A stretch of DNA of 64,000 bases from Sulfurimicrobium lacus (GTDB lineage: Bacteria; Pseudomonadota; Gammaproteobacteria; Burkholderiales; Sulfuricellaceae): the NCBI RefSeq assembly GCF_011764585.1, contig NZ_AP022853.1, positions 603,501-667,500 of the forward strand, read 5' to 3'. The stretch's first letter is position 1, and every line of letters starts with the position of its first letter. The translations under genes were made by a program, and so were the position numbers. This document shows positions 8,060 to 33,309 of the stretch, piece by piece. The notes under the pieces were generated by a model. That model was given only the letters and a program-made list of their open reading frames with translations, was not told the DNA's origin and did no database searches.

Positions 8060-8067
8060 GGTGAAAC

Positions 8068-8952: not shown

Positions 8953-8965
8953 CCGGTGCGGCAGC

Positions 8966-9421: not shown

Positions 9422-9457
9422 TTTTCAATTCCTCCTTTCAATCAAAAAATTGATTTG

Positions 9458-10677: not shown

Positions 10678-10721
10678 TTTTGTTTAACCTCTGGTCGGGA
10701 TTTCGGCTTAAAAAAGATCTG

Positions 10722-10846: not shown

Positions 10847-10907
10847 TAAAATATTTTTCAAAACTTGATTCTAGCCGAATCGGACAAAGTTTACTAAATC
10901 ACTCGGC

Positions 10908-10913
10908 TATAAT
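10908..10913 (+). promoter_or_regulatory. Perfect -10 hexamer abutting the selO start
   Basis: TATAAT at 10908-10913 overlaps the upstream ATG at 10912, so that ATG is unlikely to be translated. Transcription from this -10 would begin about 10920, at the ATG at 10921, predicting a leaderless mRNA. No good -35 hexamer is seen at the right distance, so the promoter is tentative. Confidence 0.45.
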
Positions 10914-10920
10914 GTATCCC

Positions 10921-19203: not shown

Positions 19204-19899
19204 ATGAGTGCAGCGGAAAATCTGGCGGAAGAGCGCCATATCACGGTCTACATCATGGGCAAGGCCTACGAGGTGCCGGCCGAGGCGACCATCATGGGCG
19301 CCATCGAGTATGCCGGCCACCAGATCATCCGCGGCGCCGGCTGCCGCGAAGGCTATTGCGGCGCCTGCGCCACCATCTACCGCCTGCCCGGCGACTACAA
19401 GATACGCACCGGCCTGGCCTGCATGACCCTGGTCGAGGACGGCATGACGCTGGCCCAGATCCCCTCGGTTCCCGCCGAAAAGGCGATCTACGACATCGAG
19501 AAACTCAAGCCCGACGTCAGCGCCATGATGCAGGTGTACCCCACGATTTTCCGCTGCGTCGCCTGCAACACCTGCACCAAGGCCTGCCCGCAGGGGCTCC
19601 AGGTCATGGATTACATCCAGGCCGCCAAGCGCGGCGACATCGCGGCGGTGATGGATTTGTCCTTCGACTGCGTCGAGTGCGGGCTGTGCATGCTGCGCTG
19701 CCCGGCCGAGATCACGCAACCGCTGGTCGGCATCCTGGGGAAACGTCTTTACGGCCGCTATCTGCGCAAGGAAAGCCCGGATCTGGTGGCCAAGGTCAAG
19801 GCCGTGGAGGACGGCGCCTTCGAGGCGGAATATGCCGAGATGATGGCGCTGAGCCGCGAGGCCTTGTCCCAGCGTTACTACGCCCTCGACAGCGAATAA
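19204..19899 (+). CDS. Fumarate reductase/succinate dehydrogenase-like iron-sulfur subunit (TfrB N-part-like)
   Basis: The 231-residue protein carries a plant-type [2Fe-2S] domain (GCREGYCGAC from about residue 46, later LAC) and a C-terminal domain with two four-cysteine motifs, CVACNTCTKACP (about 118) and CVECGLCMLRCP (about 156). This is the SdhB/FrdB/TfrB electron-transfer layout. It stops after the clusters and lacks the CCG domain fused in methanogen TfrB. It directly precedes the flavoprotein subunit (12-base gap) and no membrane-anchor subunit follows, so the enzyme is predicted to be soluble. It should carry electrons between the FAD site and a partner such as the separately encoded HdrB. 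Confidence 0.85.
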   Translation: MSAAENLAEERHITVYIMGKAYEVPAEATIMGAIEYAGHQIIRGAGCREGYCGACATIYRLPGDYKIRTGLACMTLVEDGMTLAQIPSVPAEKAIYDIEKLKPDVSAMMQVYPTIFRCVACNTCTKACPQGLQVMDYIQAAKRGDIAAVMDLSFDCVECGLCMLRCPAEITQPLVGILGKRLYGRYLRKESPDLVAKVKAVEDGAFEAEYAEMMALSREALSQRYYALDSE

Positions 19900-19911
19900 G
19901 AGAGGAATCAG

Positions 19912-21627
19912 ATGTATCCAGAATACATGGCGGAATCGTTGCGCAAGGTAGCGCAAACGCGCCCGGGACGTTTGGAACTGGCGCGCAAGCCCGCCCCTGT
20001 CTATCCGCCCATGAACGCCGAGGAACGGCAAGCGGTGCTGGAAGGCTTCCACCCCGATTACGAACCCAGCGCGCGGCGCCCGGTGCGCGTCGGCCCCAAC
20101 CGCGGCGAGACGCTGACCACCGAGGTCGCCGACCTGCTGGAATCCCACTCCTGGCTGCGCAGCGAACAGGTGGATCTCGAACACCCGGATTTCGAAACCG
20201 ATCTGCTGATCATCGGCGGCGGCGGCGCCGGCTGCAATGCCGCGCTGGTCGCCATGCAGGAACACGGCATGCGCTCCATGATCGCCACCAAGCTGCGCAT
20301 GGGCGACTCCAACACCATCATGTCGCAGGGCGGCATGCAGGCCGCGGTGTCGGCCACCGACTCGCCCACCCGCCATTTCCTCGACGCCATCGGCGGCGGC
20401 CACTTCGAGAACAAGCCCGAGCTGGTCAAGGCGCTCACAGAGGACGGCCCGGCCGTGGTGAAGTGGCTGGAAGACCTGGGCGTGGTGTGGGACAAGGAAG
20501 AAGACGGCTCGATGCAGGTGCTGCACGGCGGCGGCACTTCAAGAAAACGCATGGTGTCGTGCCGCGACTACACCGGCGCCATGATCATGCGCACCCTGAT
20601 GGACGAGGTGCGCAACCATCCCGACATGATCACCATCAAGGAATTCATGCCGGCGGTGGAGCTGATCATGGACGACGAAGGCCGCTGCGCCGGCGCGATC
20701 CTATACAGCATGGACAGCGAGGAATTCTTCACCGTCAAGGCGAAATCCACCCTCATCGCCACCGGCGGCTACGGCCGCCTGCACATCCGCGGCTACGACA
20801 CCACCAACCACTACGGCGCCACCGGCGACGGACTGGTGATGGCCTACCGCGCCGGCGCCAAGCTGATGTACATGGACTCGGTGCAGTACCACCCGACCGG
20901 CGCGTCCTTTCCCGAGCAGATCGCCGGCTTCCTCATCACCGAAAAAATTCGCGGCGCCGGCGGCCAGCCGCTCAACAAGGACGGCGAGCTGTTCGTCTTC
21001 CCGCGCGAGCCGCGCGACATCGAGGCCTCGGCCATCATCCGCGAATGCGTGCAGAACGGCGGCGGCGTCGAGACCCCCTCGGGGCGCCTCGGCGTGTGGC
21101 TGGACTCGCCGCTCATCGACATGCTGCACGGCGAAGGCTACGTGGCCCACCAGTTCCCGGCCATGTACCGCCAGTACATCCGCTACGGCATCGACATCAA
21201 CAAGCTGCCGATGCTGATCTACCCGTCGCTGCACTACCAGAACGGCGGGGTCGAGATCAACGAGCGCTGCGAGACCGATATCCCCGGCCTGTACGTGGCG
21301 GGCGAAGCCACCGGCGGCCTGCACGGGCGCAACCGGCTGATGGGCAACTCGGTGCTCGACTACAACGTGTTCGGGCGGCGCGCCGGACGCTATGCCGGCG
21401 AATACGCCAAGAGCGTCAAACTCGGTCGGCTCAGCCTGGCGCATCTCGACAAATTCGAGCAAGAGCTGGCGGATTCCGGCGTACAAACCGACCTGGTGAC
21501 GCCGATCCTGCTGCCCTCCTACGCGCCCAAGGACGTCAAGAAACGCCGCCTGGTGCGCGGCGGCAACGTGCTGCCCGGCGCCTCGGTGCTGCACAACCGG
21601 CTGCACGACGAAAGGTCCGGCAACTGA
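19912..21627 (+). CDS. Fumarate reductase/succinate dehydrogenase-like flavoprotein subunit (TfrA-like)
   Basis: The 571-residue flavoprotein has the FAD loop IIGGGGAGCNAAL (about residue 101), VQYHPTG (about 324), a PRDIEASAI segment and the late GLHGRNRLMGNSVLDYNVFG with the substrate-site arginine (about 473), all shared with SdhA/FrdA/TfrA. At the position of the histidine that binds FAD covalently in SdhA/FrdA the sequence is DSNTIMSQGG, so asparagine replaces histidine and FAD is probably non-covalent. About 80 extra N-terminal residues precede the FAD domain. It interconverts fumarate and succinate; direction and electron partner are inferred from the Hdr-Flx context. The stop overlaps the ferritin-like gene. 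Confidence 0.88.
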   Translation: MYPEYMAESLRKVAQTRPGRLELARKPAPVYPPMNAEERQAVLEGFHPDYEPSARRPVRVGPNRGETLTTEVADLLESHSWLRSEQVDLEHPDFETDLLIIGGGGAGCNAALVAMQEHGMRSMIATKLRMGDSNTIMSQGGMQAAVSATDSPTRHFLDAIGGGHFENKPELVKALTEDGPAVVKWLEDLGVVWDKEEDGSMQVLHGGGTSRKRMVSCRDYTGAMIMRTLMDEVRNHPDMITIKEFMPAVELIMDDEGRCAGAILYSMDSEEFFTVKAKSTLIATGGYGRLHIRGYDTTNHYGATGDGLVMAYRAGAKLMYMDSVQYHPTGASFPEQIAGFLITEKIRGAGGQPLNKDGELFVFPREPRDIEASAIIRECVQNGGGVETPSGRLGVWLDSPLIDMLHGEGYVAHQFPAMYRQYIRYGIDINKLPMLIYPSLHYQNGGVEINERCETDIPGLYVAGEATGGLHGRNRLMGNSVLDYNVFGRRAGRYAGEYAKSVKLGRLSLAHLDKFEQELADSGVQTDLVTPILLPSYAPKDVKKRRLVRGGNVLPGASVLHNRLHDERSGN

Positions 21628-22160
21628 TGAGCCACATCGACGACAGAGTGATAGAGCTGGCGCGCACTGCGCTGAGCCTGGAATTCGGCGGCGAGCATTT
21701 CTACCGTCATGCCGCCGAGATGACCCAAAATCCGAGCGGCAAGGCGATGTTCCTGCGCCTGGCGGAGGAAGAAAATACGCGCCGGGACGATACCCACACG
21801 CTGTTCGGCGCGATCATTGGCGCAGACGCGTGGCAACAGCTGGTCGCCGAGGAGGCGAAGTATGCCCACCCCTCGAAAGTGGTGGCCGAGCTCGAAGCCG
21901 CCGTCGCCCACCGCGGCCACGCGCTGGTCGCCGACGACACCCAGGCGCTGCGTCATGCCATGGATCTGGAGCGGCGGGCGATTCACCTGTTCGAGGAGCT
22001 GGCCACCCATACCCACGACCCGGTAATCGTCGGGCTGATCGGCAAGATGGCCGACGAGGAGCGCCTGCAGTACGACCTGCTGCAGGCCCAGCTGGACAGC
22101 GTGCTGAACGTCGGCTTGTGGCTCGACCAGCCGGAATTCCGCATGGACGGGAAGTTCTGA
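21627..22160 (+). CDS. Ferritin-like/rubrerythrin-family four-helix protein
   Basis: The 177-residue, all-helical protein has two internal half-repeats: LEFGGEHFYRHAAEM with LAEEENTRRDDTHTLF, and LERRAIHLFEELATHTHD with MADEERLQYDLL. These match the metal-ligand helices of rubrerythrin-type diiron proteins. The C-terminal rubredoxin domain (CxxC pairs) is absent. The last expected histidine ligand is replaced by tyrosine (EERLQY), so the diiron site may be altered. Its ATG overlaps the flavoprotein stop (TGATG), placing it inside the oxygen-sensitive redox operon, where a peroxide- or oxygen-scavenging, protective role is a reasonable guess. Confidence 0.8.
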   Translation: MSHIDDRVIELARTALSLEFGGEHFYRHAAEMTQNPSGKAMFLRLAEEENTRRDDTHTLFGAIIGADAWQQLVAEEAKYAHPSKVVAELEAAVAHRGHALVADDTQALRHAMDLERRAIHLFEELATHTHDPVIVGLIGKMADEERLQYDLLQAQLDSVLNVGLWLDQPEFRMDGKF

Positions 22161-22186
22161 GGATGGCGCACATCACGAACGTTTTT

Positions 22187-22280
22187 CCCTCTCCCCAACC
22201 CCTCTCCCGCAAGCGGGCGAGGGGCTTTAGATTCGTCTTCTCCCCTCGCCCGCTTGCGGGAGAGGGGCCGGGGGAGAGGG
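22187..22280. repeat. Long GC-rich palindrome between the ferritin-like gene and hdrC
   Basis: The arms at 22187-22224 and 22242-22280 (CCCTCTCCCC ... GCAAGCGGGCGAGGGG and its complement) are nearly perfectly complementary over about 37 bases with a 17-base loop. It is a REP-like element and would form a very stable hairpin in the mRNA. It ends 4 bases before the hdrC start codon and could affect its translation. Confidence 0.85.
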
Positions 22281-22284
22281 CCGC

Positions 22285-22704
22285 ATGAATACCACCCTAT
22301 GCATCTCCTCGATTCGCCCTGGCAGCCCTTTTGTTGCGCTGATTGAAAAGATCAGCGGCCAGAATCTGCTGGCCTGCTACCAGTGCGGCAAGTGCTCCGC
22401 CGGTTGCCCAATGGCGCCCCACATGGACGTGCTGCCCAACCAGATCATCCGCCTTGCCCAACTCGGGATGAAGGAGAAGCTGCTGACCACGCGCTCCATC
22501 TGGGTGTGCGTGTCCTGCATGACCTGCAATTCGCGTTGCCCCAAGGACATCCGCATCGCCGAGGTGTTCGAGGCGTTGCGCGAGATGGTGCTGCGCGACG
22601 GCAGCCGCGACGACCGGCTGGATGTCCGCGAGCTGTCCCCCGAGGCGCGCGGCGCATTGCCGCCGATCGCCATGATCAGCGCCATGCGCAAGCTGACTTC
22701 CTGA
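22285..22704 (+). CDS. hdrC: Heterodisulfide reductase subunit C (HdrC)
   Basis: The 139-residue protein has two [4Fe-4S] motifs, CYQCGKCSAGCP (about residue 30) and CVSCMTCNSRCP (about 75), with the HdrC-typical stretches SGQNLLACYQCGKCSAGCPM and RSIWVCVSCMTCNSRCP. HdrC passes electrons between HdrA and HdrB. No second hdrC exists in the window. No clear ribosome site is separable from the palindrome that ends at 22280. The gene is flanked on both sides by palindromic repeats, so it forms its own block within the operon. Confidence 0.92.
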   Translation: MNTTLCISSIRPGSPFVALIEKISGQNLLACYQCGKCSAGCPMAPHMDVLPNQIIRLAQLGMKEKLLTTRSIWVCVSCMTCNSRCPKDIRIAEVFEALREMVLRDGSRDDRLDVRELSPEARGALPPIAMISAMRKLTS

Positions 22705-22750
22705 TATGGGAAATGAAAACACAACGATGAACCTAAAAACCGCAATTCAA

Positions 22751-22872
22751 GCCACAGAGAACACAGAGGTCACAGAGATGAAGCGGGTTTCGCCTATTTT
22801 ACCAATTCACCTGAAGCCAGTATTTTTTGCAAGTTATTGTTTTTACTCTGTGAACTCTGTGTTCTCTGTGGC
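22751..22872. repeat. Palindromic repeat, CCACAGAG-type, copy C
   Basis: Arms starting GCCACAGAGAACACAGAGG at 22751 and ending at 22872 are inverted copies separated by about 65 bases. It belongs to the same family as copies A and B. It occupies most of the 185-base gap between hdrC and hdrB and ends 17 bases before the hdrB start. Confidence 0.85.
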
Positions 22873-22889
22873 TAAATGAGTTTTCAAGG

Positions 22890-23768
22890 ATGAAACTGAT
22901 TTACTACCCCGGCTGCACGCTGAAGAACCAGGCCAGAAACTTCGACGTTTCCACCGTTTCGTCGATGGCGGAGCTGGACGTGGAGGTCGAGGAACTGGCG
23001 CGCTGGAACTGCTGCGGCACGGTGCATGCGCTGGCCTCCGACGACGTCATGCACCGCATGGCGCCGGTGACCAACCTGATCCGCGTCAAGGAGGCCAATG
23101 CCAGCGAGTTCATGACCTCCTGCGCGATGTGCTACAACACCCTGAAGCGCGCCAACATCGACGTGAAGAAGCGCGCCGATGCGCTCGAAACCATCAACCA
23201 GTTCCTTTATCTCGAAGAAACCAAGTACGCGGGCGATGTCGACGTGCTCCACCTGCTCGAATACCTGCGCGACCGCGTCGGCTTCGACAAGCTGGCCGAA
23301 AAGGTGAAAAAACCGCTCACCGGCCTGCGCGTGGCCTGCTACTACGGCTGCCTGCTGGTGCGCCCGAAGGAAGTCGCCTTCGACGATGCCGAGAACCCGG
23401 TGGTCATGGAGAACCTGATCTCCGCCCTCGGCGGCACGCCGGTGCCCTTCCCGCAGAAGACCGAATGCTGCGGCGCCCACCATACGGTCGGCAACCCGGA
23501 GATCGTCGCCGAGCGCACCGACAAGATCATGGGTTCGGCGCACGAGCAGGCGGCCGACCTGGTGGTGGTGAGCTGCCCGCTGTGTGCTTTCAACCTGGAT
23601 TTCCGCCAGGACGACGCGCGCCGTCTCAACCCAGACTTCCACCATCTGCCGGTGCTCTACTTCACCCAGCTGATGGCGCTGGCGTTCGGCTGCGACGACG
23701 CGTCGCTGCGTTTCGACCTGCACCACATCGACCCGCTGCCGGCCCTGGCGGCGCGCGGACTCGCCTGA
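22890..23768 (+). CDS. hdrB: Heterodisulfide reductase subunit B (HdrB), two CCG domains
   Basis: The 292-residue protein has the HdrB opening MKLIYYPGCTLKNQARNFD and two CCG cysteine motifs (WNCCGTVHA near residue 41 and TECCGAHHT near residue 193), plus MTSCAMCYNTLK and VVSCPLCAFNLDF. In HdrB these bind the unusual non-cubane [4Fe-4S] clusters that reduce a disulfide. It is the only CCG-domain protein of the cluster, so it must serve the Hdr complex, the fumarate reductase-like pair, or both. The physiological disulfide in a bacterium is unknown. An 8-base gap leads to the ferredoxin-like gene. Confidence 0.94.
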   Translation: MKLIYYPGCTLKNQARNFDVSTVSSMAELDVEVEELARWNCCGTVHALASDDVMHRMAPVTNLIRVKEANASEFMTSCAMCYNTLKRANIDVKKRADALETINQFLYLEETKYAGDVDVLHLLEYLRDRVGFDKLAEKVKKPLTGLRVACYYGCLLVRPKEVAFDDAENPVVMENLISALGGTPVPFPQKTECCGAHHTVGNPEIVAERTDKIMGSAHEQAADLVVVSCPLCAFNLDFRQDDARRLNPDFHHLPVLYFTQLMALAFGCDDASLRFDLHHIDPLPALAARGLA

Positions 23769-23776
23769 GGAAAACG

Positions 23777-24049
23777 ATGTTTTTCAACGATCTCAAACCG
23801 GTTCAGGGCAAGGTCCACATCAACAACGCCTGGTGCAAGGGATGCGGCTTCTGCGTGCAGTTCTGCCCCACCAACGTGCTGGACGTTTCCCCCGAGTTCA
23901 ACGCCAAGGGCTACCACCCGCCCTATGTGAAAAACCCGGATGACTGCCGCTACTGCATGTATTGCCAAATGATCTGTCCCGAGTTTTCCATCTTCGTGAC
24001 CAGGCTCGATGAAAATGCGGACGCCGCAAAAGAGGAAGCAAAAAAATGA
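23777..24049 (+). CDS. korD: Ferredoxin-like delta subunit of 2-oxoacid:ferredoxin oxidoreductase
   Basis: The 90-residue protein has two [4Fe-4S] motifs, CKGCGFCVQFCPTNVL and CRYCMYCQMICPEF, matching the OorD/KorD subunit. The order D-A-B-C is that of oorDABC in epsilonproteobacteria. Its stop overlaps the alpha-subunit start (ATGA). It should pass electrons between the thiamine enzyme and soluble ferredoxin, or possibly directly to HdrA, encoded downstream. The extra length between its second cluster and the C-terminus is acidic and lysine-rich. Confidence 0.9.
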   Translation: MFFNDLKPVQGKVHINNAWCKGCGFCVQFCPTNVLDVSPEFNAKGYHPPYVKNPDDCRYCMYCQMICPEFSIFVTRLDENADAAKEEAKK

Positions 24050-25212
24050 ACTTTGTTAGCGCAGACCCCAGGGGCGTCGATGCCGGCCCGCACTTCATGG
24101 ACGGCGACCACGCCCTCGCCGAAGGCGCGCTGGCGGCAGGTTGCCGCTTCTTCGCCGGCTATCCCATCACGCCCTCGACCGAAGCCGCCGAGCGCTTCGC
24201 CGAGCGGGCGCCCGAAGTCGGCGCGCTGTTCATCCAGATGGAGGACGAACTGGCTTCCATCGCCGCCCTGATCGGCGCGGCCTGGGGCGGCAAGAAGGTG
24301 ATGACCGTGACCTGCGGCCCCGGCTTCTCCCTGATGGTGGAAAACATCGGCCTGGCGGTCATGACCGAAACCCCGCTGGTGATCGCCAACGTGCAGCGCG
24401 GCGGCCCGTCGACCGGCCTGCCCACGCTCACCGCCCAGCAGGACATGATGCAGGCGAAATGGGGCCCGCATGGCGACAACGCCATCATCGCCCTGTCGCC
24501 GGACAGCCCGCAGGAATGCTTCGATCTCGCCATCGAAGCCTTCAACCTGTCGGAGTTCTACCGCGTGCCGGTCATCATCCTGACCGACGAAACCGTCGGC
24601 CACATGCACGAGAAGGTGGTGATACCGCCCGCCGACCAGATCCAGGTAGTGCCGCGCAACAATTACAGCGGCCCCAAGGAAGACTTCCGCCCCTACAAGT
24701 TCGACGGCCAGGGCGGGCATCCCATGACGCAGGCGGGCGACGGCTACAACTTCCACATCACCGGCTTGGTGCACGACGAGCGCGGCTACCCGGTCATGAC
24801 CCCCGAGCAGGGCAAGACCGTGGTCACCCACCTGATGGAAAAGATCAACGGCAATGCCGACAAGATCGTGCGTCTCGCCGAGGATCAGGTCGACGGCGCC
24901 GATGTGGTGGTGGTGTCCTACGGGATTACCTCGCGCATCGCGGTGAAAGCCATCCAGGATGCGCGCAACGAAGGCATCAAGGTCGGCTCGCTGCGCCTCA
25001 TCACCATCTGGCCGTTCTGCGAGACGCGCATTCGCGAACTGGCAGGCAAGGTGAAGGCCATCGTGGTGCCGGAGATCAACTACGGCCAGATGGTGCTCGA
25101 AGTGGAGCGTTGCGCCGCCGGAAAATGTGAGGTGATCAGCGTCAATCACTGCGGCGGCGCGGTGCACGACCCGGAAGTGATCCTCGACGCCATCAGAAAG
25201 GCCAGCAAATGA
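24046..25212 (+). CDS. korA: 2-oxoacid:ferredoxin oxidoreductase alpha subunit (probably 2-oxoglutarate)
   Basis: The 388-residue protein has the alpha-subunit signatures AEGALAAGCRFFAGYPITPSTE, ELASIAALIGAAWGGKKVMT, QRGGPSTGLPT and the C-terminal FCETRIRELAGKVKAIVVPE. The family reversibly converts a 2-oxoacid and CoA into acyl-CoA, CO2 and reduced ferredoxin. Four separate subunits in the order D-A-B-C and the closest resemblance of the motifs suggest 2-oxoglutarate, but branched-chain or pyruvate specificity cannot be ruled out by eye. It overlaps both neighbours by 4 bases, indicating tight stoichiometry. It is oxygen-sensitive in most organisms. Confidence 0.9.
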   Translation: MNFVSADPRGVDAGPHFMDGDHALAEGALAAGCRFFAGYPITPSTEAAERFAERAPEVGALFIQMEDELASIAALIGAAWGGKKVMTVTCGPGFSLMVENIGLAVMTETPLVIANVQRGGPSTGLPTLTAQQDMMQAKWGPHGDNAIIALSPDSPQECFDLAIEAFNLSEFYRVPVIILTDETVGHMHEKVVIPPADQIQVVPRNNYSGPKEDFRPYKFDGQGGHPMTQAGDGYNFHITGLVHDERGYPVMTPEQGKTVVTHLMEKINGNADKIVRLAEDQVDGADVVVVSYGITSRIAVKAIQDARNEGIKVGSLRLITIWPFCETRIRELAGKVKAIVVPEINYGQMVLEVERCAAGKCEVISVNHCGGAVHDPEVILDAIRKASK

Positions 25213-26171
25213 TTACTGATCTCGGACAATTCAAGGAAGACAGCCCCATGTCCGGCACCCTGCGCATGGAGCGCATGCCGCATATCTGGTGCCCCGGTTG
25301 CGGCATCGGCTCCGAGGTGAACGCCTTTGCCGAGGCGGTCAAGCGCAGCGGCATCGACCCCAAGAAACTGGTCGTGGTGTCGGGCATCGGCTGTACCGGG
25401 CGCGTGGCGGGCTACGTCGATTTCGACTCGATCCACACCACGCACGGCCGCGCCATCCCGGTGGCCACCGGCATCAAGCTGGCCAACCCCGAGCTGACGG
25501 TGGTGGTGTTCAGCGGCGAGGGCGACCTGACCGGCATCGGCGGCAATCACCTGATCCACGCCGCGCGGCGCAACATGGACCTGGTGGTGATCTGCAACAA
25601 CAACTTCACCTACGGCATGACCGGCGGCCAGGTCACGCCGACCACGCCGTCATCGGCCATCGCCTCGACCACGCCCTACGGCAACTACGAATACCCGTTC
25701 AGCCTGCCGTTCCTGGCGGACGCCGCCGGCGCCACCTACGTCGCGCGCTGGACGTCGATGCACGTGCGCAACCTCACCCAATCGATCGAGGAGGCGCTGG
25801 CGCGCAAGGGGTTCTCCTTCATCGAGGTGATCTCGCCGTGCACCACGCTGTATCTGCGCCGCAACCGCCTCGGCGACGGCGTCGACATGCTGCAGAACTA
25901 CCAGGAAAACACCGTCCTCAAGCACGGCTGCGACACCCGCGAGACGGCCATCGACTTCTCGGGCAAGATCGTCATCGGCAAGTTCGTCGAGAAGGACAAG
26001 CCCACCTACCTCGAAGCGGTCGACAAGTGCTGCGTCAAGCTGGTGGGCGACGATTACCAGCTCTATGGCAAGACCGTACCCGAGCGGGAAGCCGAGGAAA
26101 AGGCCGAGAAGGAGCGCGTTGCCGCGCGCCGCGCCGCCGTGCTGGCGGAAGAAGCGGAAGCGAACGAATGA
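25209..26171 (+). CDS. korB: 2-oxoacid:ferredoxin oxidoreductase beta subunit, thiamine diphosphate-binding
   Basis: The 320-residue protein carries WCPGCGIGSEV (cluster cysteines near residue 28), GIGCTGRVAGYVDFDSIHTTHGRAIPVATGIK, and the thiamine diphosphate motif GEGDLTGIGGNHLIHAARRN with NNFTYGMTGGQ. It forms the catalytic site together with the alpha subunit. The start at 25209 overlaps the alpha stop; an internal ATG (MSGTLRMERMPHIW) is an alternative closer to the usual family start. The C-terminal 40 residues form a charged coiled-coil-like tail (EREAEEKAEKERVAARRAAV), longer than usual. Confidence 0.92.
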   Translation: MITDLGQFKEDSPMSGTLRMERMPHIWCPGCGIGSEVNAFAEAVKRSGIDPKKLVVVSGIGCTGRVAGYVDFDSIHTTHGRAIPVATGIKLANPELTVVVFSGEGDLTGIGGNHLIHAARRNMDLVVICNNNFTYGMTGGQVTPTTPSSAIASTTPYGNYEYPFSLPFLADAAGATYVARWTSMHVRNLTQSIEEALARKGFSFIEVISPCTTLYLRRNRLGDGVDMLQNYQENTVLKHGCDTRETAIDFSGKIVIGKFVEKDKPTYLEAVDKCCVKLVGDDYQLYGKTVPEREAEEKAEKERVAARRAAVLAEEAEANE

Positions 26172-26737
26172 GCACCCAGGAAATCCGGTTTTCCGGCTTC
26201 GGCGGCCAGGGCATCATTCGCTGCGCCCTGATCACCGGCAAGGCGCTGTCCCTCTACGACGACAAGTTCGCCACCATGACCCAGAGCTTCGGCCCGGAGG
26301 CGCGCGGCAGTGCTTGCGCGGCGCAACTGGTGGTGTCCGACGAGCGCGTCCTCTATCCCTACATCACCCAGCCGGGGATACTCATGGCGCTGTCCCAGGA
26401 GGCCTACGACAAGTATTACGGCGAGCTGCCCAAGGGGGGCGTGCTGATCGTCGAACAGGACCTGGTGAAGCTGCATTCCGACCATGCCGACCTCGCGCTG
26501 ATGCGGGTGCCGGCGACCCGCTTCGCCGAGGCGCTGGGCAACCGATTGTTCACCAACCTGGTGGCGCTGGGCTTCTTCACCGCGGTGACCGAGGTGGTGA
26601 CCGCCGATGCCATGAAAAAAGCCCTGCCCGGCCTGGTTCCCGACCGTTTCCTGAAAATCAACCTCAGGGCGTTCGAAAAAGGCTACGAACACGGCCTCCA
26701 GCTCATGGGCCAGGGCGCCGCCGAGAGTGTGTCATGA
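26168..26737 (+). CDS. korC: 2-oxoacid:ferredoxin oxidoreductase gamma subunit
   Basis: The 189-residue gamma subunit has the family start IRFSGFGGQGIIRCALITGKA, TQSFGPEARGSACAAQLVVSDERVLYPYI, and NRLFTNLVALGFFTAV. It completes the four-subunit enzyme. Both ends overlap neighbours by 4 bases, so hdrA follows directly in the same translational chain. This physical coupling of the oxidoreductase to hdrA is the main argument that the two act together. Confidence 0.92.
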   Translation: MSTQEIRFSGFGGQGIIRCALITGKALSLYDDKFATMTQSFGPEARGSACAAQLVVSDERVLYPYITQPGILMALSQEAYDKYYGELPKGGVLIVEQDLVKLHSDHADLALMRVPATRFAEALGNRLFTNLVALGFFTAVTEVVTADAMKKALPGLVPDRFLKINLRAFEKGYEHGLQLMGQGAAESVS

Positions 26738-28686
26738 CCAAGAAGCGCACCGGCGTTTTCGTCTGCCACTGCGGCAACAACATCGCCGCCACCGTCGACG
26801 TGGCGCGGGTGGCGCGGGAGATGTCCGCAGAGGAGAGCGTGGTCTACTCCCAGGACTACGTCTACATGTGCTCGGACCCGGGCCAGAACGCGGTGATCAA
26901 TGCGATCAAGGACAACCGCCTGGACAGCGTGGTGGTCTCCTGCTGCTCGCCGACGCTGCACGAGAAGACCTTCCGCGACAACGCCAAGATCGCCGGCATC
27001 AACGGCTTCACCTGCGAGATCGCCAACATCCGCGAGCAGTGCAGCTGGGTCCACAAGGATCGCGGCGAGGCCACCGAAAAAGCCATCAAGATCTCGCGCA
27101 GCGCCGTGCGCCGCGCGGGCCGCAACCAGTCGCTGGAACCGATCGGCATCGGCGTGACGCGGCGGGTGATGGTGATCGGCGGCGGCATCGCTGGCATCCA
27201 GGCCGCGCTCGACATCGCCAACGCCGGCCTGGAAGTGATCCTGGTCGAAAAGGCGGCGACCCTCGGCGGCCACATGCTCCAGCTGTCCGAGACTTTCCCC
27301 ACGCTGGACTGCTCGCAGTGCATCCTCTCGCCCAAGATGGTGGAAGTGTCGCGCCACCCGAAAATCAAGGTGATGACCTACTGCGAGGTGCAGGAAGTTT
27401 CCGGTTCGGTGGGTAACTTCAAGGCCAAAATCCTCAAGAAGCCCACTTTCGTCGATCCCGAAAAATGCAAGATATGCAACGACTGCGCCAAGGTGTGCCC
27501 GGTCGTGGTGCCGAACGAATACGAGCTCAATCTGTCCGCCCGGCGCGCCATCCACATTCCCTACGCACAGGCCATCCCCGCCAGCTACACGCTCGACATC
27601 GAGGCCTGCCTGGGGCTGAACCCGGTGGTGTGCGGCAAGTGCAAGGACGCTTGCGAGGCCGGGGCCATCGATTACGACATGCGGCCCGAGACGGTGGTCG
27701 AGGAAGTCGGCGCCATCGTGGTGGCCACCGGCTTCGACCTCTACGGCCAGGAAAACCTCGGCGAGTACGGCTACGGCAAGGTCGAGGACGTGCTCGACGG
27801 CCTGCAGTTCGAGCGCCTGTGTTCGGCCTCGGGGGCGACCAGCGGCCACATTCTGCGGCCCTCCGACCACCAGGTGCCCAAGGATGTGGTGTTCATCCAG
27901 TGCGCCGGCTCGCGCGATCCGGCCAACCACTGCGCCTACTGCTCCAAGATCTGCTGCATGTACACCGCCAAGCACGCCAGCCTGTACAAGCACCACGTTC
28001 CGGACGGCCGCGCCTACGTGTTCTACATCGACATCCGCGCCGGCGGCAAGGGCTACGAGGAGTTCGTGCAGCGCACCATGGAGGACGACGGCGCCATCTA
28101 CCTGCGCGGCCGAGTCTCCAAGCTCTACCGCAAGAACGGCAAGATCAAGGTGCTGGGCACCGATACCTTGTCCGGCCAGAACGTCGAGATCGACGCCGAC
28201 ATGGTGGTGCTGGCGCTGGCCATGCAGCCCTCCAAGGGCACCGAAGAGATCGCCAAAACGCTCAAGATCGGGCGCGACAAGGACGGTTTCTTGGCCGAGG
28301 CCCATCCCAAGCTGAGGCCGGTCGAAAGCGTCACTGCAGGCATCTTCCTGGCGGGCACCGCCCAGGGACCGAAAGACATCCCGGAAACCGTCGCCCAGGC
28401 CGGCGCGGCGGCGGCCAAGGTGATCGCGCTGCTGTCGCAGCCGACCCTGAGCCATGCGCCGACCGTCGCCAAGGTGCGCCGTTCCCATTGCACCGGCTGC
28501 AAGATGTGCGTCACCGCCTGCCCCTACCACGCGATCCGGCTGGAGAATGGCAAGGCGCTGGTGAACGAGGTGCTGTGCGAAGGTTGCGGTAGCTGCACCG
28601 CCACCTGCCTGCGCGCCGCCATCGAGGTCAAGAACGTCACGCAGTTGCAGGTTTTTGAAATGATCGAAGCGTGTCTCAGTACTTGA
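26734..28686 (+). CDS. hdrA: Heterodisulfide reductase subunit A (HdrA), flavoprotein
   Basis: HdrA is the FAD protein at which electron bifurcation occurs in HdrABC complexes. The 650 residues show an N-terminal cysteine region (VFVCHCGNN), the FAD loop VIGGGIAGIQAALDIANAG (about residue 149), DCSQCILSPKM, inserted [4Fe-4S] motifs CKICNDCAKVCP (about 246) and CGKCKDAC, the GSRDP... YCSKICCMYTAKHA segment, and a C-terminal two-cluster ferredoxin domain (CTGCKMCVTACP, CEGCGSCTATC, about 586-625). It is a single-length HdrA, not fused to MvhD. Its start overlaps korC. It should take electrons from FlxABCD and split them between ferredoxin and HdrBC. Confidence 0.94.
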   Translation: MTKKRTGVFVCHCGNNIAATVDVARVAREMSAEESVVYSQDYVYMCSDPGQNAVINAIKDNRLDSVVVSCCSPTLHEKTFRDNAKIAGINGFTCEIANIREQCSWVHKDRGEATEKAIKISRSAVRRAGRNQSLEPIGIGVTRRVMVIGGGIAGIQAALDIANAGLEVILVEKAATLGGHMLQLSETFPTLDCSQCILSPKMVEVSRHPKIKVMTYCEVQEVSGSVGNFKAKILKKPTFVDPEKCKICNDCAKVCPVVVPNEYELNLSARRAIHIPYAQAIPASYTLDIEACLGLNPVVCGKCKDACEAGAIDYDMRPETVVEEVGAIVVATGFDLYGQENLGEYGYGKVEDVLDGLQFERLCSASGATSGHILRPSDHQVPKDVVFIQCAGSRDPANHCAYCSKICCMYTAKHASLYKHHVPDGRAYVFYIDIRAGGKGYEEFVQRTMEDDGAIYLRGRVSKLYRKNGKIKVLGTDTLSGQNVEIDADMVVLALAMQPSKGTEEIAKTLKIGRDKDGFLAEAHPKLRPVESVTAGIFLAGTAQGPKDIPETVAQAGAAAAKVIALLSQPTLSHAPTVAKVRRSHCTGCKMCVTACPYHAIRLENGKALVNEVLCEGCGSCTATCLRAAIEVKNVTQLQVFEMIEACLST

Positions 28687-28700
28687 GGAAATAAGAGAAT

Positions 28701-28782
28701 GTAGGGTGCAATAACCGAAGGGCATTGCACCAACATCACGGCAAAACATCCGGTGCAATGCGCTACGCTTATTGCACCCTAC
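28701..28782. repeat. Palindromic repeat GTAGGGTGCAATAA between hdrA and flxD
   Basis: The arms at 28701-28731 and 28752-28782 (GTAGGGTGCAATAA ... GCATTGCACC and its complement) match at all but three positions across 31 bases, with a 20-base loop. This fills the 117-base gap between hdrA and flxD. It is a REP-like or MITE-like element of a different family from copies A-C. Confidence 0.85.
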
Positions 28783-28803
28783 GCAGCGAGGAAAGAAATT
28801 CCG

Positions 28804-29235
28804 ATGTCGGAACAGCAAACATACGAACCCAGGATCGTCGCCTTCCTGTGCAAGTGGTGCTCGTCGGCGGGCAGCGATTTGGCGGGCGTCTCGCGCATCC
28901 AGTATCCGGCCAACGCCACGCCGATCACCGTGCCGTGCTCGGGCAGCATCTCGCCGATGTACATCCTGTCGGCCTTCAACAAGGGCGCGGACGGCGTGCT
29001 GGTGTCGGGCTGTCATCTCGGCGATTGCCACTACATCGAGGGCAACTACCTGGCGCGGCGCAAGATCCAGCTGGTCAAGGAACTGCTCGAATTTGTCGGC
29101 GTCGAGCCGGACCGCTTCCGCATGTCCTGGGTATCGGCCGCCGAGGGCGCCAAGTACGCCGAGGTGATCAAGGATTTCGTCGCCGACCTCAAGCCGCTCG
29201 GGCCGCAGGAAAAACTCAAGGCGGACCGCTCGTGA
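28804..29235 (+). CDS. flxD: FlxD/MvhD-like [2Fe-2S] linker subunit
   Basis: The 143-residue protein resembles the delta subunit of F420-non-reducing hydrogenase (MvhD), which docks on HdrA: IVAFLCKWCSSAGSDLAGVSR, TVPCSGSISPMYILSAFNKGADGVLVSGCHLGDCHYIEGN. The conserved cysteines bind a [2Fe-2S] cluster that hands electrons to HdrA. No hydrogenase subunits are encoded here. The genes that follow instead match FlxC, FlxB and FlxA, as in the NADH-linked Flx-Hdr complexes of Desulfovibrio. A good ribosome site (GAGGAAAG) precedes the ATG, which lies just after the palindrome. Confidence 0.92.
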   Translation: MSEQQTYEPRIVAFLCKWCSSAGSDLAGVSRIQYPANATPITVPCSGSISPMYILSAFNKGADGVLVSGCHLGDCHYIEGNYLARRKIQLVKELLEFVGVEPDRFRMSWVSAAEGAKYAEVIKDFVADLKPLGPQEKLKADRS

Positions 29236-30263
29236 TCAATCTTCAGGACATCCGCGACACCGCGCGCGACCTCCTCGCCAGCGGCGAAGTGCGCGCCGTC
29301 ATCGGCTTCCGCAGCGGCAGCCGCGGCATGGCCGCCGAACCGGCTTTCATCACCCGCCCCGAAGAGGCCGACGAGCTGGTGTGGGACCCGACCTGCTTCC
29401 ACAACCTGGCGCTCTACCTGGTCGAGGACCGCAAGTTCCAGGCGCACGCCCGCGCCAACCCGGCGGCACCGATCGCCGTCGTCGCCAAGGGCTGCGACGC
29501 GCGCGCCATCGTGGTGCTGCTGCAGGAACACTACTTCAAGCGCGATCAGGTCTACATCATCGGTGTGTCGTGCGAAGGCAGCGGGGTGCTGGACGAACGC
29601 AAGCTGGCCGGCCACCTCAACGGTTTCCCGGCGACCAGCGCCGCCTTCGACGGCGACGATTTCGTGTTCGTCACCGCGCAGGGCGAGCAGCGCTTGCCGG
29701 CGCGCGAGGTGATGGCGGAGCGCTGCCTGGAATGCCGCGAGCCTTATCCCCGCGAGCACAACGTGGTGCTCGGCGAGAACAGGAGCGGGCGCGAACTGGC
29801 ACTTCCCTTCGCCGCCCTTACGCGCTTCGAGGCGCAGAGCCCCGCCGAGCGCTGGGAGTTCTGGCAGCGCCACTTCGAGCGCTGCATCCGCTGCTACGCC
29901 TGCCGCTCGGTGTGCCCGATGTGCTTCTGCGACGAGTGCGTGGTCGACAGCATCACTTACCCGGTGACGGCGGAAACCACGGCCGAGGAAAAAGCCAACC
30001 GCGTGCGCTGGATCGAACGCTCGGCGACACGCTCCGAAAACATCACCTACCACATGACGCGCGCCATGCACCTCGCCGGTCGCTGTGTCGACTGCGGCGA
30101 ATGCGAGCGCGTCTGCCCGGTCAACATCCCGTTGCGCTTGCTCAACAATAAGATGGAGCGGGAAGCCCGCGAACGCTTCGGTTACGAGCCGGGCGCAAGC
30201 ATCGGGGGGCCGTCGCTGGTGGCCTCGTTCCGCGACGACGACCCCGGTCAATTCATCAGGTAA
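29232..30263 (+). CDS. flxC: FlxC-like iron-sulfur protein
   Basis: The 343-residue protein starts with GTG at 29232, overlapping the flxD stop. It has an N-terminal alpha/beta domain (VRAVIGFRSG ... AVVAKGCDARAIVVLLQE, resembling F420 hydrogenase beta-type proteins), then CLECREPYP, the cysteine-rich CIRCYACRSVCPMCFCDECVVD (about 217) and CVDCGECERVCP (about 285). It should carry at least two [4Fe-4S] clusters. Its place between flxD and flxB matches FlxC, which conducts electrons inside the Flx module. Automated annotation often calls it a 4Fe-4S dicluster or hydrogenase-related protein. Confidence 0.83.
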   Translation: MINLQDIRDTARDLLASGEVRAVIGFRSGSRGMAAEPAFITRPEEADELVWDPTCFHNLALYLVEDRKFQAHARANPAAPIAVVAKGCDARAIVVLLQEHYFKRDQVYIIGVSCEGSGVLDERKLAGHLNGFPATSAAFDGDDFVFVTAQGEQRLPAREVMAERCLECREPYPREHNVVLGENRSGRELALPFAALTRFEAQSPAERWEFWQRHFERCIRCYACRSVCPMCFCDECVVDSITYPVTAETTAEEKANRVRWIERSATRSENITYHMTRAMHLAGRCVDCGECERVCPVNIPLRLLNNKMEREARERFGYEPGASIGGPSLVASFRDDDPGQFIR

Positions 30264-30266
30264 GTC

Positions 30267-31301
30267 ATGGAAAAAATATTACACAAGGAACGCCTGGACG
30301 ACTGGATCGCCGCGCTGAGCGACAGGGAGATTCTTTCTCCTGCGCTGGAAGACGGCGTGTGGGCATTCCGCCCCGCCGGCGCTGCCGTCCGCCTCGATTA
30401 TCCCAACACCACGCAGCCGCCCAAGGGGCTCGCCTTTCCCCAGCGGGAAGTGTTTTTCTCCTTCGAGCAGGTCAAGGGCGAGGCGCCGCTGCTGCGGCAA
30501 ACCCTGCCGCAGGTGGCGCAGCGCGTGGTGTTCGGCGTGCGCCCCTGCGACGGCCGCGCCGTGCCGCGCATGGACAAGGTGTTCAGCGATCACGTCGAAG
30601 ACCCGTACTACTGGGCGCGGCGCAAGCAGGTGGCCTACGTCGGCCTGGCCTGCCAGCAGCCGCCGAGCAGCAACTGCTTCTGCCAGTCGGTCGGCGGCTC
30701 GCCGGTGTCCAGCGACGGCCTCGACGTGCTGTTGACCGACCTGGGCGAGCGCTACTTCGCGGCGGCGGTCAGCGAGACCGGCAAGGCGCTGATGATGGCG
30801 GGCGAGAGCCTGTTCGAGGCGGCGACCGACGCCGACCGCGCGCAGCTGCAAGGCGCGCACGCCGCGGCGCTGGCCCGGCCGCAACGCGCGGTGCGCGATC
30901 CCGACGCGCTGCCGTCCAAGCTGAAGGCGAGCTTCGACTCGCCGCTGTGGGAAGAGCTGGCGCGCGCCTGCATCGGCTGCGGCATCTGCACCTTCCTGTG
31001 CCCGACCTGCCATTGCTTCGACATCAACGACGAAGTCACCGGCGCGGCGCCGCTCAAGGGCAAGCGGGTGCGCACCTGGGACACCTGCCAGTTCCCCGAC
31101 TTCACCATGCACACCTCCGGCCACAACCCGCGCGAGAACAGCGGCGCCCGGCTGCGCCAGCGGGTGAGCCACAAGTTCCAGTATTTCCACGAGAATTTCG
31201 CGATGCATCAATGCACGGGCTGCGGCCGCTGCGTCACCGGATGCCCGGTGGGGATCGACATCGTCTCCGTCGTCAACAAGGTGGCCGAACATGCAGGATA
31301 A
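30267..31301 (+). CDS. flxB: FlxB-like iron-sulfur subunit (sulfhydrogenase beta/HydB-type)
   Basis: The 344-residue protein has an N-terminal domain with VVFGVRPCDGRAVPRMDKVF and NCFCQSVGGSP, then two four-cysteine motifs, CIGCGICTFLCPTCHCFDI (about 234) and CTGCGRCVTGCPVG (about 316). This is the layout of the beta subunits of sulfhydrogenase, of AsrA, and of FlxB. It pairs with the NAD-binding subunit encoded next, which starts inside its 3' end (11-base overlap). Despite the usual hydrogenase label, no NiFe catalytic subunit is present in the window. Confidence 0.88.
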   Translation: MEKILHKERLDDWIAALSDREILSPALEDGVWAFRPAGAAVRLDYPNTTQPPKGLAFPQREVFFSFEQVKGEAPLLRQTLPQVAQRVVFGVRPCDGRAVPRMDKVFSDHVEDPYYWARRKQVAYVGLACQQPPSSNCFCQSVGGSPVSSDGLDVLLTDLGERYFAAAVSETGKALMMAGESLFEAATDADRAQLQGAHAAALARPQRAVRDPDALPSKLKASFDSPLWEELARACIGCGICTFLCPTCHCFDINDEVTGAAPLKGKRVRTWDTCQFPDFTMHTSGHNPRENSGARLRQRVSHKFQYFHENFAMHQCTGCGRCVTGCPVGIDIVSVVNKVAEHAG

Positions 31302-32094
31302 CGTCTATCTTCCGCAACTGGCGCGGGTCGTCCGCATCGCCGACGAGGTCGCCGGCGAACGCGCCATCAAGACCTACCACGTCGAACCGCTGGACAGCGC
31401 TGGCTTCGAACACGCGTGCGGCCAGTGCGCCATGCTCTCGATCTTCGGCCGCGGGGAAATGATGATTTCCATCGCCTCCTCGCCGCTGGTCAAGGAATAC
31501 AAGCAATTCACCATCATGCGCACCGGGCGGGTGAGCCTCGCCTTCCACGAACTGGCGGTGGGCGACGTGGTGGGCATGCGCGGCCCCTACGGCAACAGTT
31601 TCCCGATTGAAGCGTGGCGCGGCAAGAACCTGGTCTTCATCGGCGGCGGCGTCGGCCTGGCGCCGATCTGGCCGCTGATCACCACGGCGATGGCGCAACG
31701 CGGCGACTTCGGGGACATCGGCGTGTTCTACAGCACGCGCTCCAGCAGCATCATGTACCGGGCGGAACTCGAAGCGCTGCGCGGCCAGGCCGACGTCCAC
31801 CTGGAAGGCTGGCGGACGCATCAGGCCGGCGTGGCGGCCGGGACCGCCGAGCAGACCGTCACGGCCGAGAATAGCGTCGCGGTGGTGTGCGGGCCGCCGG
31901 CCATGATCAAGTCGGTGATCCAGAACCTGTGCCAGCTGGGGTTCGCGGACGAGCAGATCTTCACGACCCTGGAAAACAAGATGAAATGCGGCGTGGGCAA
32001 ATGCGGCCGCTGCAACGTCGGCAAGGACTACGTGTGCGTCAAGGGGCCGGTCTATTCCTGGGCTGAGCTGAAGAAGCTGCCGCAGGAGTATTAA
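31291..32094 (+). CDS. flxA: FlxA-like FAD/NAD(P)-binding oxidoreductase (sulfhydrogenase gamma type)
   Basis: The 267-residue protein has a ferredoxin-NADP reductase fold: the FAD-binding barrel with MRGPYGNSFPIE, the nucleotide loop LVFIGGGVGLAPIWPLI (about 113), VVCGPPAMIKSVIQNL, and a C-terminal [2Fe-2S] motif CGVGKCGRCNVGKDYVC. It is the entry or exit point for NAD(H) in the Flx module. As the last gene of the string it makes the complex NADH-linked, so electrons from NADH can reach HdrA via FlxB, FlxC and FlxD. A repeat element follows directly after the stop. Confidence 0.92.
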   Translation: MQDNVYLPQLARVVRIADEVAGERAIKTYHVEPLDSAGFEHACGQCAMLSIFGRGEMMISIASSPLVKEYKQFTIMRTGRVSLAFHELAVGDVVGMRGPYGNSFPIEAWRGKNLVFIGGGVGLAPIWPLITTAMAQRGDFGDIGVFYSTRSSSIMYRAELEALRGQADVHLEGWRTHQAGVAAGTAEQTVTAENSVAVVCGPPAMIKSVIQNLCQLGFADEQIFTTLENKMKCGVGKCGRCNVGKDYVCVKGPVYSWAELKKLPQEY

Positions 32095-32095
32095 C

Positions 32096-32179
32096 GTGAA
32101 ACTCGCGCAGCGAGCCTTCGTCCCCCTCTCCCGCAATCGGGGGAGGGCAGGGGTGGGGGGCGGGCATGGCGAGTTTCAC
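32096..32179. repeat. Inverted-end element GTGAAACTCGC with internal hairpin
   Basis: This is an 84-base element with perfect 11-base inverted ends, GTGAAACTCGC (32096-32106) and GCGAGTTTCAC (32169-32179), and an internal GC-rich hairpin (CCCTCTCCC/GGGGGAGGG). It starts two bases after flxA and lies between convergent flxA and aroC, where it may serve as terminator. A degenerate relative is at 46233-46353. Confidence 0.8.
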
Positions 32180-32208
32180 AGTCTGGGGCTGCACATTCGC
32201 CATGACCG

Positions 32209-33309
32209 TCAGGCGGCTTTGCCCGGTATCCTTGGCGTCTTGCACACCACATCGGCATTCTGCGCGCGCTGGCGCAGGGCGTGGTCCATCAGCACGATGG
32301 CCAGCATGGCCTCGGCGATGGGCGTGGCGCGGATGCCGACGCAGGGGTCGTGGCGGCCGTGGGTTTCTACCATGATGGGCTCGCCCGCCAGGTTGATGGA
32401 GCGGCGCGGGATGCGGATGCTGGAGGTGGGCTTGACGGCGAGGTGGGCGACCACGTCCTGGCCGCTGGAAATGCCGCCCAGGATGCCGCCGGCGTGGTTG
32501 GAGAGGAAGCCCTGCGGCGTCAGTTCGTCGCCGTGCTCGGAGCCTTTTTGCGTCACGCAGCCGAATCCCGCACCGATTTCCACGCCTTTCACCGCGTTGA
32601 TGCTCATCAGGGCGTAGGCGATGTCGGCGTCGAGGCGGTCGTACACCGGTTCGCCCCAGCCCACCGGCACGTTCTCGGCGACCACGGTCAGTTTGGCGCC
32701 GATGGAATCGCCTTCCTTGCGCAGCGCGTCCATGTAATCCTCGAGCTGCTGGGTGTAGCTGGAATCTGCGACGAAGAAGGGGTTCTGCCCGACGTCCGCC
32801 CAATCCTTGAACGGCACTTCAATCGGCCCCAGCTGCGAAAGGTAGCCGCGCACCACGATGCCGTAGCGCTGCTGCAGCCACTTTTTCGCCACCGCTCCGG
32901 CGGCCACGCGCACCGCGGTTTCCCGCGCGCTGGAACGGCCGCCGCCGCGGTAGTCGCGGAAGCCGTATTTTTGCGTGTAGGTGTAGTCGGCGTGGCCGGG
33001 GCGGAAGGTGTCGGCGATGTTGCCGTAATCCTTGCTGCGCTGGTCCTCGTTGCGGATCAAGAGGGCGATGGGGGTGCCGGTGGTCTTGCCTTCGAATACG
33101 CCGGAAAGGATTTCCACCGTGTCCGACTCGCGCCGCTGGGTGACGTGGCGCGAGGTGCCCGGCTTGCGCCGGTCGAGGTCGAGCTGGATATCCGCGGCGG
33201 AAATTTCCAGCCCCGGCGGGCAGCCGTCCACCACGCAGCCGATGGCGGGGCCATGAGATTCGCCGAAGGAAGTGACGCTGAACAGCTTGCCGAGGGAATT
33301 GCCGGACAT
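32209..33309 (-). CDS. aroC: Chorismate synthase
   Basis: AroC converts 5-enolpyruvylshikimate-3-phosphate to chorismate using reduced FMN, the last common step of aromatic amino-acid synthesis. The 366 residues carry the signatures [49 protein letters not shown], the central [24 protein letters not shown], and the late [17 protein letters not shown]. The start at 33309 is the family start. It is convergent with flxA and divergent from a 52-residue ORF. Confidence 0.97.

Follow-up and report, generated by a model that had tools for sequence, protein, structure and literature searches.

Clusters in which 2-oxoglutarate:ferredoxin oxidoreductase (OGOR) and fumarate reductase genes accompany an Hdr core have been described before. 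In tubeworm symbionts, Thioflavicoccus mobilis and a metagenome-assembled genome (MAG), korABCD and tfrAB are interspersed with flxABCD-hdrABC; the same paper names rbr in the legend of its Figure 2, suggests that electrons are delivered by a complex to both OGOR and fumarate reductase, and names the reversed oxidative tricarboxylic acid (roTCA) cycle (PMC6315080, Rubin-Blum 2019). KorABCD lies between HdrA and HdrBC in the Endoriftia operon (PMC11636981), and Ca. Celaenobacter (Cloacimonadota) has a hydrogenase-linked cluster of thiol:fumarate reductase (TFR), OGOR, Hdr and Mvh (PMC8542988). The "succinate operon" of Pseudoclostridium thermosuccinogenes combines Flx-Hdr with a fumarate reductase; its authors, who cite a preprint about bifurcation by a fumarate reductase, proposed a link to ferredoxin reduction (PMC7282089). 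Hdr proteins are also on record from sulfur bacteria (PMC4914600), as the bifurcating HdrA2B2C2 (PMC5296606) and as HdrABC-FlxABCD in Deferribacterota (PMC12887300). Here we analyse a 64,000-nucleotide stretch of the Sulfurimicrobium lacus genome (contig NZ_AP022853.1, hereafter the window), where the list of open reading frames (ORFs) with translations shows positions 19204-32094 filled by an island of 14 intact plus-strand genes in the order tfrB-tfrA-rbr-hdrC-hdrB-korDABC-hdrA-flxDCBA (Table 1).

Judging from sequence comparisons, we read the island, with a probability of about 60%, as encoding a soluble NADH-driven electron-bifurcating fumarate reductase coupled to OGOR, which would provide a reductive branch free of ATP-citrate lyase (ACL) beside the Calvin cycle. 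It is a well-conserved module of an already described type, whose outline had been read correctly in an initial annotation made from the DNA letters alone. The gene identities proposed there agree with the Pfam and NCBIfam matches, both of which back the family names of the 14 proteins, most narrow NCBIfam models being matched below cut-off. All 14 genes and their order were also given as we find them, whereas the "mostly 4-base overlaps" apply to 5 of the 13 junctions (korD/A, korA/B, korB/C, korC/hdrA and flxD/C), with overlaps of 1 base at tfrA/rbr and 11 bases at flxB/A. Novelty of the arrangement had to be given up: the combination, which the annotation had not known from any description, was published with the same hypothesis (PMC6315080, PMC11636981), in a hydrogenase version (PMC8542988) and, as a related Flx-Hdr-fumarate reductase succinate operon, in PMC7282089. 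Compared with the nearest relative, L039, the ratio of non-synonymous to synonymous substitutions (dN/dS) stayed under 0.35 in each of the 14 genes (for flxA, just 165 residues were compared), indicating purifying selection; together with the intact ORFs this rules out a decaying island.

One TfrA scan of genome contigs yielded 54 named loci. Within the reach of each locus, 37 of them keep the window order, and all 14 genes are visible in 17, with kor between hdrB and hdrA in 17/17. Because the order recurs in 37/54 loci and dN/dS stays low, it is not a product of chance. These 37 loci belong mostly to Gallionellaceae, Nitrosomonadales, Hydrogenophilales and Rhodocyclaceae, plus Thiodictyon and a few others; the betaproteobacterial host named in the annotation fits, since the window genome belongs to the same taxonomic order as G154, which is identical in contig and ACL position to G316, the genome of L055, a named Gallionellaceae MAG. 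In the window, too, korABCD and tfrAB are interspersed with hdrABC and flxABCD, and korDABC separates hdrBC from hdrA. One of the 37, L071 (3970-13410) from a Rhodanobacteraceae MAG, retains tfrB-tfrA-rbr-hdrC, and no other island gene was detected by tblastn in the ~9 kb beyond hdrC. Overall, rbr is present in 37/54 loci (38 rows including the window).

The linkage extends to other phyla in altered order. In seven loci, from Aminicenantes, Acidobacteriota and Coatesbacteria, tfrB-tfrA comes after the flx genes, which places tfrBA at the other end, and rbr is missing; korDABC was reached upstream in four of them (L072, L078, L080, L086). Two Cloacimonadota loci, L082 and L088, read korDABC-hdrC-hdrB-hdrA-flxD-tfrB-tfrA and then, in place of FlxABC, encode a Vhu/Mvh-type [NiFe] hydrogenase and its protease. 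The module is preceded in L082 (NCBIfam) and followed in L088 (read from ORFs) by genes for succinyl-CoA synthetase and fumarase, and this neighbourhood supports fumarate/succinate as the substrate pair. Four further loci deviate from these orders and four are too short to classify.

Within the same taxonomic order we also observed a second type of cluster with tfrB-like and ~45%-identical tfrA-like genes in L012, L014, L015, L016 and L018, the genome of L015 belonging to the same family as the window genome. An ORF read by eye as NuoF-like is present in L012, L014, L016 and L018, and L012 and L015 contain a korB-like gene; these clusters possibly encode a non-bifurcating NADH:fumarate reductase.

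Methanogen HdrA (5odc_A) is a full-length homologue of the island HdrA (residues 2-647, 649 bits), whose FAD and Fe-S sites can be aligned with those of bifurcating HdrA, and its K413 stands opposite K409 of 5odc, a residue that we presume to have a role in bifurcating HdrA. HdrB has two CCG stretches (PF02754), and its ten cysteines are invariant in 42 rows. The Flx set is full: an NAD(P)/FAD-binding FlxA, the Fe-S proteins FlxB and FlxC, which resemble a sulfhydrogenase beta subunit and the FdhB of Hdr-formate dehydrogenase complexes, respectively, and the FlxD/MvhD linker. Flx would thus be the donor module, predicted to dock on HdrA via FlxD, with FlxA as the probable entry point of electrons from NADH rather than NADPH.

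On the acceptor side, TfrB aligns to positions 19-184 of the 488-residue methanogen TfrB profile and HdrB to positions 263-464. As both match parts of a single profile, a contact between HdrB and TfrB is implied, and this joint coverage is our best hint of a possible electron handover from HdrB to TfrB. Twelve TfrB cysteines are invariant in 50 rows; the 231-residue protein gave no PF02754 match and is without the CCG domain of methanogen TfrB, which sits here on HdrB. The best structural match of TfrA is E. coli FrdA (1kf6_A), its fold and alignment being of the FrdA/SdhA/NadB type; we used only the general fold because the model has a mean pLDDT (predicted local distance difference test) of 73 and several segments below 50. 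An N-terminal extension of ~93 residues is partly helical in the model. H327, T343, E344, H441 and R475 align with sites of both SdhA (7d6v) and NadB, R368 with SdhA only, and all six are invariant in 25 rows; N134 occupies the position of a His in 7d6v, and R475 visibly pairs in the alignment with a Leu of 1knp, an R386L mutant by its title. We take these aligned positions to be the catalytic and dicarboxylate-binding residues of succinate dehydrogenase and NadB. L-aspartate oxidase was rejected as the identity of TfrA, G206 lying at the position of the Glu of the NadB TREGG motif (presumably E121 in the E. coli enzyme) and the protein scoring below the NadB cut-offs listed. Against the methanogen Tfr cut-offs the scores were also below, 339.1 of 718 and 36.2 of 385. 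The rbr product had no NCBIfam match at 1e-8.

KorA passes the 2-oxoacid alpha model NF006412 (541.6, cut-off 411). Among structures of the PDB it is nearer to 2-oxoglutarate and 2-keto acid oxidoreductases (1yd7, 375 bits; 8ys5, 274; 6n2n, which we take to be an OGOR, 225) than to pyruvate:ferredoxin oxidoreductase (PFOR; 9bt4, 48). KorB has a charged C-terminal tail, and its ORF varies from ~290 to 475 residues among relatives.

The window genome, G000, is a single contig of 3.83 Mb listed as 100% complete, and neither PF16114 nor the full-length AclA of L127 detected an ATP-citrate lyase in it, AclA matching a 307-residue frame only in part (31%, positions 47-298 of 900). A complete reductive TCA cycle via ACL is thereby rejected for this genome, citryl-CoA synthetase/lyase not having been specifically searched, and the packaged complete module envisaged in the initial annotation does not hold for S. 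lacus. We surveyed PF16114 in 52 rows, made up of 49 of the 54 loci plus G000, G154 and G067, the last two repeating the genomes of L055 and L068. Matches at E 1.2e-15 or better were obtained in 31, weak partial ones in nine and none in 12. Among these 12 are G000 and G067, each with a listed completeness of 100%, as well as G312, G318, G326 and G331, where MAG incompleteness may be the cause. The nine weak cases are Aminicenantes, Acidobacteriota and Coatesbacteria genomes (E 1e-7 to 8e-6, eight over the Pfam cut-off); AclA, tried against two of the nine, matched at only 31-33% over ~270 of 900 residues. We did not count the nine as ACL, a different citrate- or succinate-activating enzyme being possible. 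The Cloacimonadota differ from each other, with a strong match in the genome of L088 and none in that of L082.

In five of nine ACL stretches fetched (L127, L128, L129, L130, L134) the ACL pair directly follows flxA, AclA being full length in L127 and L128; ACL lies just before tfrB in L131, and the ACL stretches of L132, L133 and L138 contain no island gene. Aconitase or isocitrate dehydrogenase genes also follow the island in some relatives. In the nearest relative ACL comes after flxA, at the place where in the window the aroC gene ends 114 bp past flxA. A different neighbourhood was seen in L137 (G067:C19, 6699-9824), where flxA is followed by squalene-synthase/hopanoid-like genes (read from ORFs) with no ACL there.

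In the mechanism that we propose, electrons of NADH would enter at FlxA and pass via FlxB/FlxC and FlxD to the HdrA flavin, where they would be split. The high-potential electrons would run through HdrC, HdrB, TfrB and TfrA to fumarate, and the low-potential ones through ferredoxin or KorD to KorABC, where succinyl-CoA would be carboxylated to 2-oxoglutarate; the net reaction would be 2 NADH + fumarate + succinyl-CoA + CO2 -> 2 NAD+ + succinate + 2-oxoglutarate + CoA. The bifurcation logic of the annotation is in keeping with the full-length homology of HdrA to 5odc with K413/K409, the ten HdrB cysteines and the TfrA residues aligned with the succinate dehydrogenase/NadB site. With potentials of -320 mV for NAD, +30 mV for fumarate and -420 to -500 mV for ferredoxin, our own arithmetic gives ~67 kJ/mol released from NADH to fumarate and a cost of ~19-35 kJ/mol from NADH to ferredoxin. 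Bifurcation in the reductive direction would be downhill by ~33-48 kJ/mol, and for this reason we prefer that direction. Since no ATP-citrate lyase was found, the product would most likely be a reductive branch, from malate to 2-oxoglutarate, rather than a complete reverse TCA cycle, working under low oxygen beside the Calvin cycle (G000 has two RuBisCO genes). Bifurcation, complex formation, direction and low-oxygen role are what we infer from these comparisons.

Several observations weigh against this reading, or against the unity of the module. The parts appear separable: in L075, an Aminicenantes chromosome among the seven loci with tfrBA at the other end, ~7171-11665 holds only a flxC remnant, flxB, flxA, tfrB and tfrA, without hdr or kor; of the four deviating loci, L081 is without flxCBA and L083, L084 and L085 have other partners. 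(The L075 genome also encodes a 396-residue POR_N protein of KorA size ~1.2 Mb away, at G334:C1:1559491, as in a split or broken module.) 2-Oxoglutarate specificity finds no confirmation in the 2-oxoglutarate alpha model, where KorA reaches 369.9 against a cut-off of 579; the other OGOR models are also below cut-off (beta 235.4 of 364, OorD 50.9 of 93, OGOR_delta 56.9 of 125). The host has an ordinary SucA (2-oxoglutarate dehydrogenase) and SdhA (succinate dehydrogenase). PF16114 had no match in 14 control genomes, so that the relatives alone serve as positive controls. The arrangement has been characterised as a description (PMC6315080, PMC11636981, PMC8542988) and not as biochemistry, of which we found none for any cluster member in the available portions of the literature examined. 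Finally, in Endoriftia the cluster genes are co-expressed except tfrAB, whose pattern differs (PMC11636981), which argues against one fixed complex.

These points leave room for other explanations. HdrBC might instead reduce a protein disulfide such as DsrC, the dithiol then feeding TfrAB, with Tfr and Kor co-regulated and not in one complex; we consider this unlikely, while granting that a dithiol acceptor is possible given the DsrC-family genes in 23 of 26 genomes tested, six of them in G000, a further point against direct transfer to TfrB. The ten conserved HdrB cysteines would suit such a role, and the FlxABCD-HdrABC of Desulfovibrio is said to have been proposed to reduce a DsrC-type disulfide. 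An alternative route via ferredoxin and a DsrC-like protein is named for Endoriftia, where tfrAB expression differs (PMC11636981). On the other hand, the island contains no dsrC ORF, TfrB and HdrB both match the same protein of the methanogen Tfr profile, and DsrC had no match in three Cloacimonadota genomes tested, two of which have the module with kor, these absences being soft as the genomes are MAGs. Direct bifurcation to fumarate remains our preferred reading.

Still less probable in our view is a fumarate-respiring ferredoxin generator supplying Rnf, nitrogenase or other sinks, with Kor working oxidatively and adding ferredoxin. Two RnfC loci over cut-off in G000, the failure to find an ACL that would close the reductive cycle and the P. 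thermosuccinogenes operon, whose available description lists Flx-Hdr and fumarate reductase and no kor (PMC7282089), agree with it; the position of kor in every locus showing all 14 genes, the ACL, aconitase or isocitrate dehydrogenase genes following the island in relatives and the presence of a SucA already able to oxidise 2-oxoglutarate do not. An ACL-independent roTCA cycle with citrate synthase running backwards, as known from other bacteria, would find its ferredoxin-linked steps in the island OGOR and fumarate reductase plus a 1233-residue NifJ-size POR_N protein (PFOR) of G000, in keeping with the missing ACL, and is nevertheless very improbable, as two RuBisCOs make a second cycle unnecessary and the NifJ-size protein is common to four congeners tested, three of them without TfrA. 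(One of the four, G350, has a further POR_N protein of 416 residues.) A bolder and doubtful extension of the NADH-driven coupling is an autonomous fumarate-powered CO2-fixing module that moves between lineages without ACL, and whose ACL-free reductive branch, or even roTCA cycle, would in this sulfur-oxidiser-type genome be a second carbon entry missed by ACL-keyed surveys.

Table 1. Genes of the island, repeat-bearing gaps and border genes, in window coordinates.
Feature	Positions	Strand	Remarks
tfrB-like iron-sulfur subunit	19204-19899	+	231 aa; 2Fe-2S and two 4Fe-4S Cys motifs
tfrA-like fumarate reductase/succinate dehydrogenase flavoprotein	19912-21627	+	571 aa; FAD_binding_2
rbr, rubrerythrin/ferritin-like	21627-22160	+	177 aa; Pfam Rubrerythrin 7.2e-7
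hdrC	22285-22704	+	139 aa; two 4Fe-4S motifs
hdrB	22890-23768	+	292 aa; two CCG stretches, ten invariant Cys
korD, ferredoxin-like delta subunit of 2-oxoacid:ferredoxin oxidoreductase	23777-24049	+	90 aa
korA, alpha subunit	24046-25212	+	388 aa; above NF006412 cut-off
korB, thiamine pyrophosphate-binding beta subunit	25209-26171	+	320 aa
korC, gamma subunit	26168-26737	+	189 aa
hdrA, FAD and Fe-S core, putatively bifurcating	26734-28686	+	650 aa
flxD, MvhD/FlpD-type linker subunit	28804-29235	+	143 aa
flxC, Fe-S subunit	29232-30263	+	343 aa, GTG start; C-terminal part FdhB-like
flxB, Fe-S subunit	30267-31301	+	344 aa; sulfhydrogenase-beta-like
flxA, FAD/NAD(P)-binding subunit	31291-32094	+	267 aa
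Palindromic insert, rbr-hdrC	22161-22284		124 bp, minimum free energy -92.9 kcal/mol; junction median 11 bp in 37 relatives
Palindromic repeat insert, hdrC-hdrB	22705-22889		185 bp; junction median 21 bp in 41 relatives
Palindromic insert, hdrA-flxD	28687-28803		117 bp; junction median 24 bp in 37 relatives
Gap with hairpin repeat, flxA-aroC	32095-32208		114 bp
Left border, major facilitator superfamily (MFS) transporter gene	17809-18966	-	named from sequence; adjoins aroC in congeners
Right border, aroC (chorismate synthase)	32209-33309	-	named from sequence; adjoins MFS gene in congeners

What is new here is the placement of the island between the MFS transporter gene and aroC, which are adjacent in congeners: in all 8 places seen across 7 congeners (two in G352, one perhaps a contaminant) the two genes lie ~20-860 bp apart without the island, and three congeners searched genome-wide had no TfrA match at E 1e-60. 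This results either from an insertion in S. lacus or from loss in the congeners, gain being the simpler reading in view of the empty site. In the TfrA tree the window branches beside L039-L041, inside ACL-bearing betaproteobacteria, and horizontal transfer from such a lineage is the probable origin of the island. Against a gain, loss in the congeners is possible, the fork of the tree that holds the window lacks resolution, and composition is uninformative about a foreign origin, the third-position GC content of the island (0.75-0.91) resembling that of six neighbour genes (0.82-0.88). Beyond the gene ends, the congener MFS-aroC spacers compared show only short, chance-level homology to the window flanks; as they carry no border footprint, we offer no insertion mechanism.

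The three internal inserts and the repeat after flxA have minimum free energies from -49.5 to -92.9 kcal/mol. Spacers of at least 90 bp occur in few relatives at the same junctions (2/37 at rbr-hdrC, 4/41 at hdrC-hdrB, 9/37 at hdrA-flxD), and copies related to the hdrC-hdrB element are found at window positions 9503-9538 and 10722-10861. At gathering scores Rfam detected only a c-di-GMP-I riboswitch (40510-40596, minus strand; 36 bits, gathering score 35), far from the island, and none at the island. Elsewhere in the genome, L135 (G000:C1:1194000-1208000, 2318-7453) has HdrA/Qmo-like frames of 444 and 757 residues with hdrC and hdrB, a cluster resembling the QmoAB-HdrCB of sulfur oxidisers.

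What keeps the island interesting, besides the putative coupling, is its occurrence without ACL in a complete genome that has the Calvin cycle and whose congeners are free of the island. In the mainly open-access literature searched, we found no description of an ACL-free betaproteobacterial version. If the coupling is real, the two reverse-TCA steps that bracket succinate would pay for each other, and NADH alone would suffice for a cell to form 2-oxoglutarate from CO2. With S. lacus, nature offers a test of the module in the absence of ACL; as the congeners are without the island at this site, the contribution of the module itself could be measured. It also follows that neither ACL nor kor-tfr-hdr-flx can stand in for the other as a marker of the reverse cycle.

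Compared with known systems, the island has the NADH module and HdrABC in common with FlxABCD-HdrABC of Desulfovibrio vulgaris, for which DsrC was reportedly proposed as acceptor (Ramos, in 2015) and which is said to have no tfr or kor genes. With methanogen thiol:fumarate reductase TfrAB it shares the homology of TfrA and of the TfrB N-terminal part, the CCG domain of methanogen TfrB being found here on a separate HdrB. The P. thermosuccinogenes operon belongs to a fermenter and, in the available portion of its description, names no kor genes, whereas the island has korDABC (PMC7282089). Ca. Celaenobacter shares the Hdr core with TFR and OGOR, and its fumarase and succinyl-CoA synthetase also occur in L082 and L088; hydrogen enters there via Mvh, compared with the predicted entry of NADH via FlxABC, and its ACL lies elsewhere in the genome (PMC8542988). 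The clusters of the tubeworm symbionts, T. mobilis and the MAG also include aclAB, accompanied by TCA genes, and pntAB/rnf, whereas in S. lacus ACL was not found and the island ends at aroC; these are nevertheless the clusters with which it shares the gene set, the placement of Kor and the hypothesis of electron flow (PMC6315080, PMC11636981).

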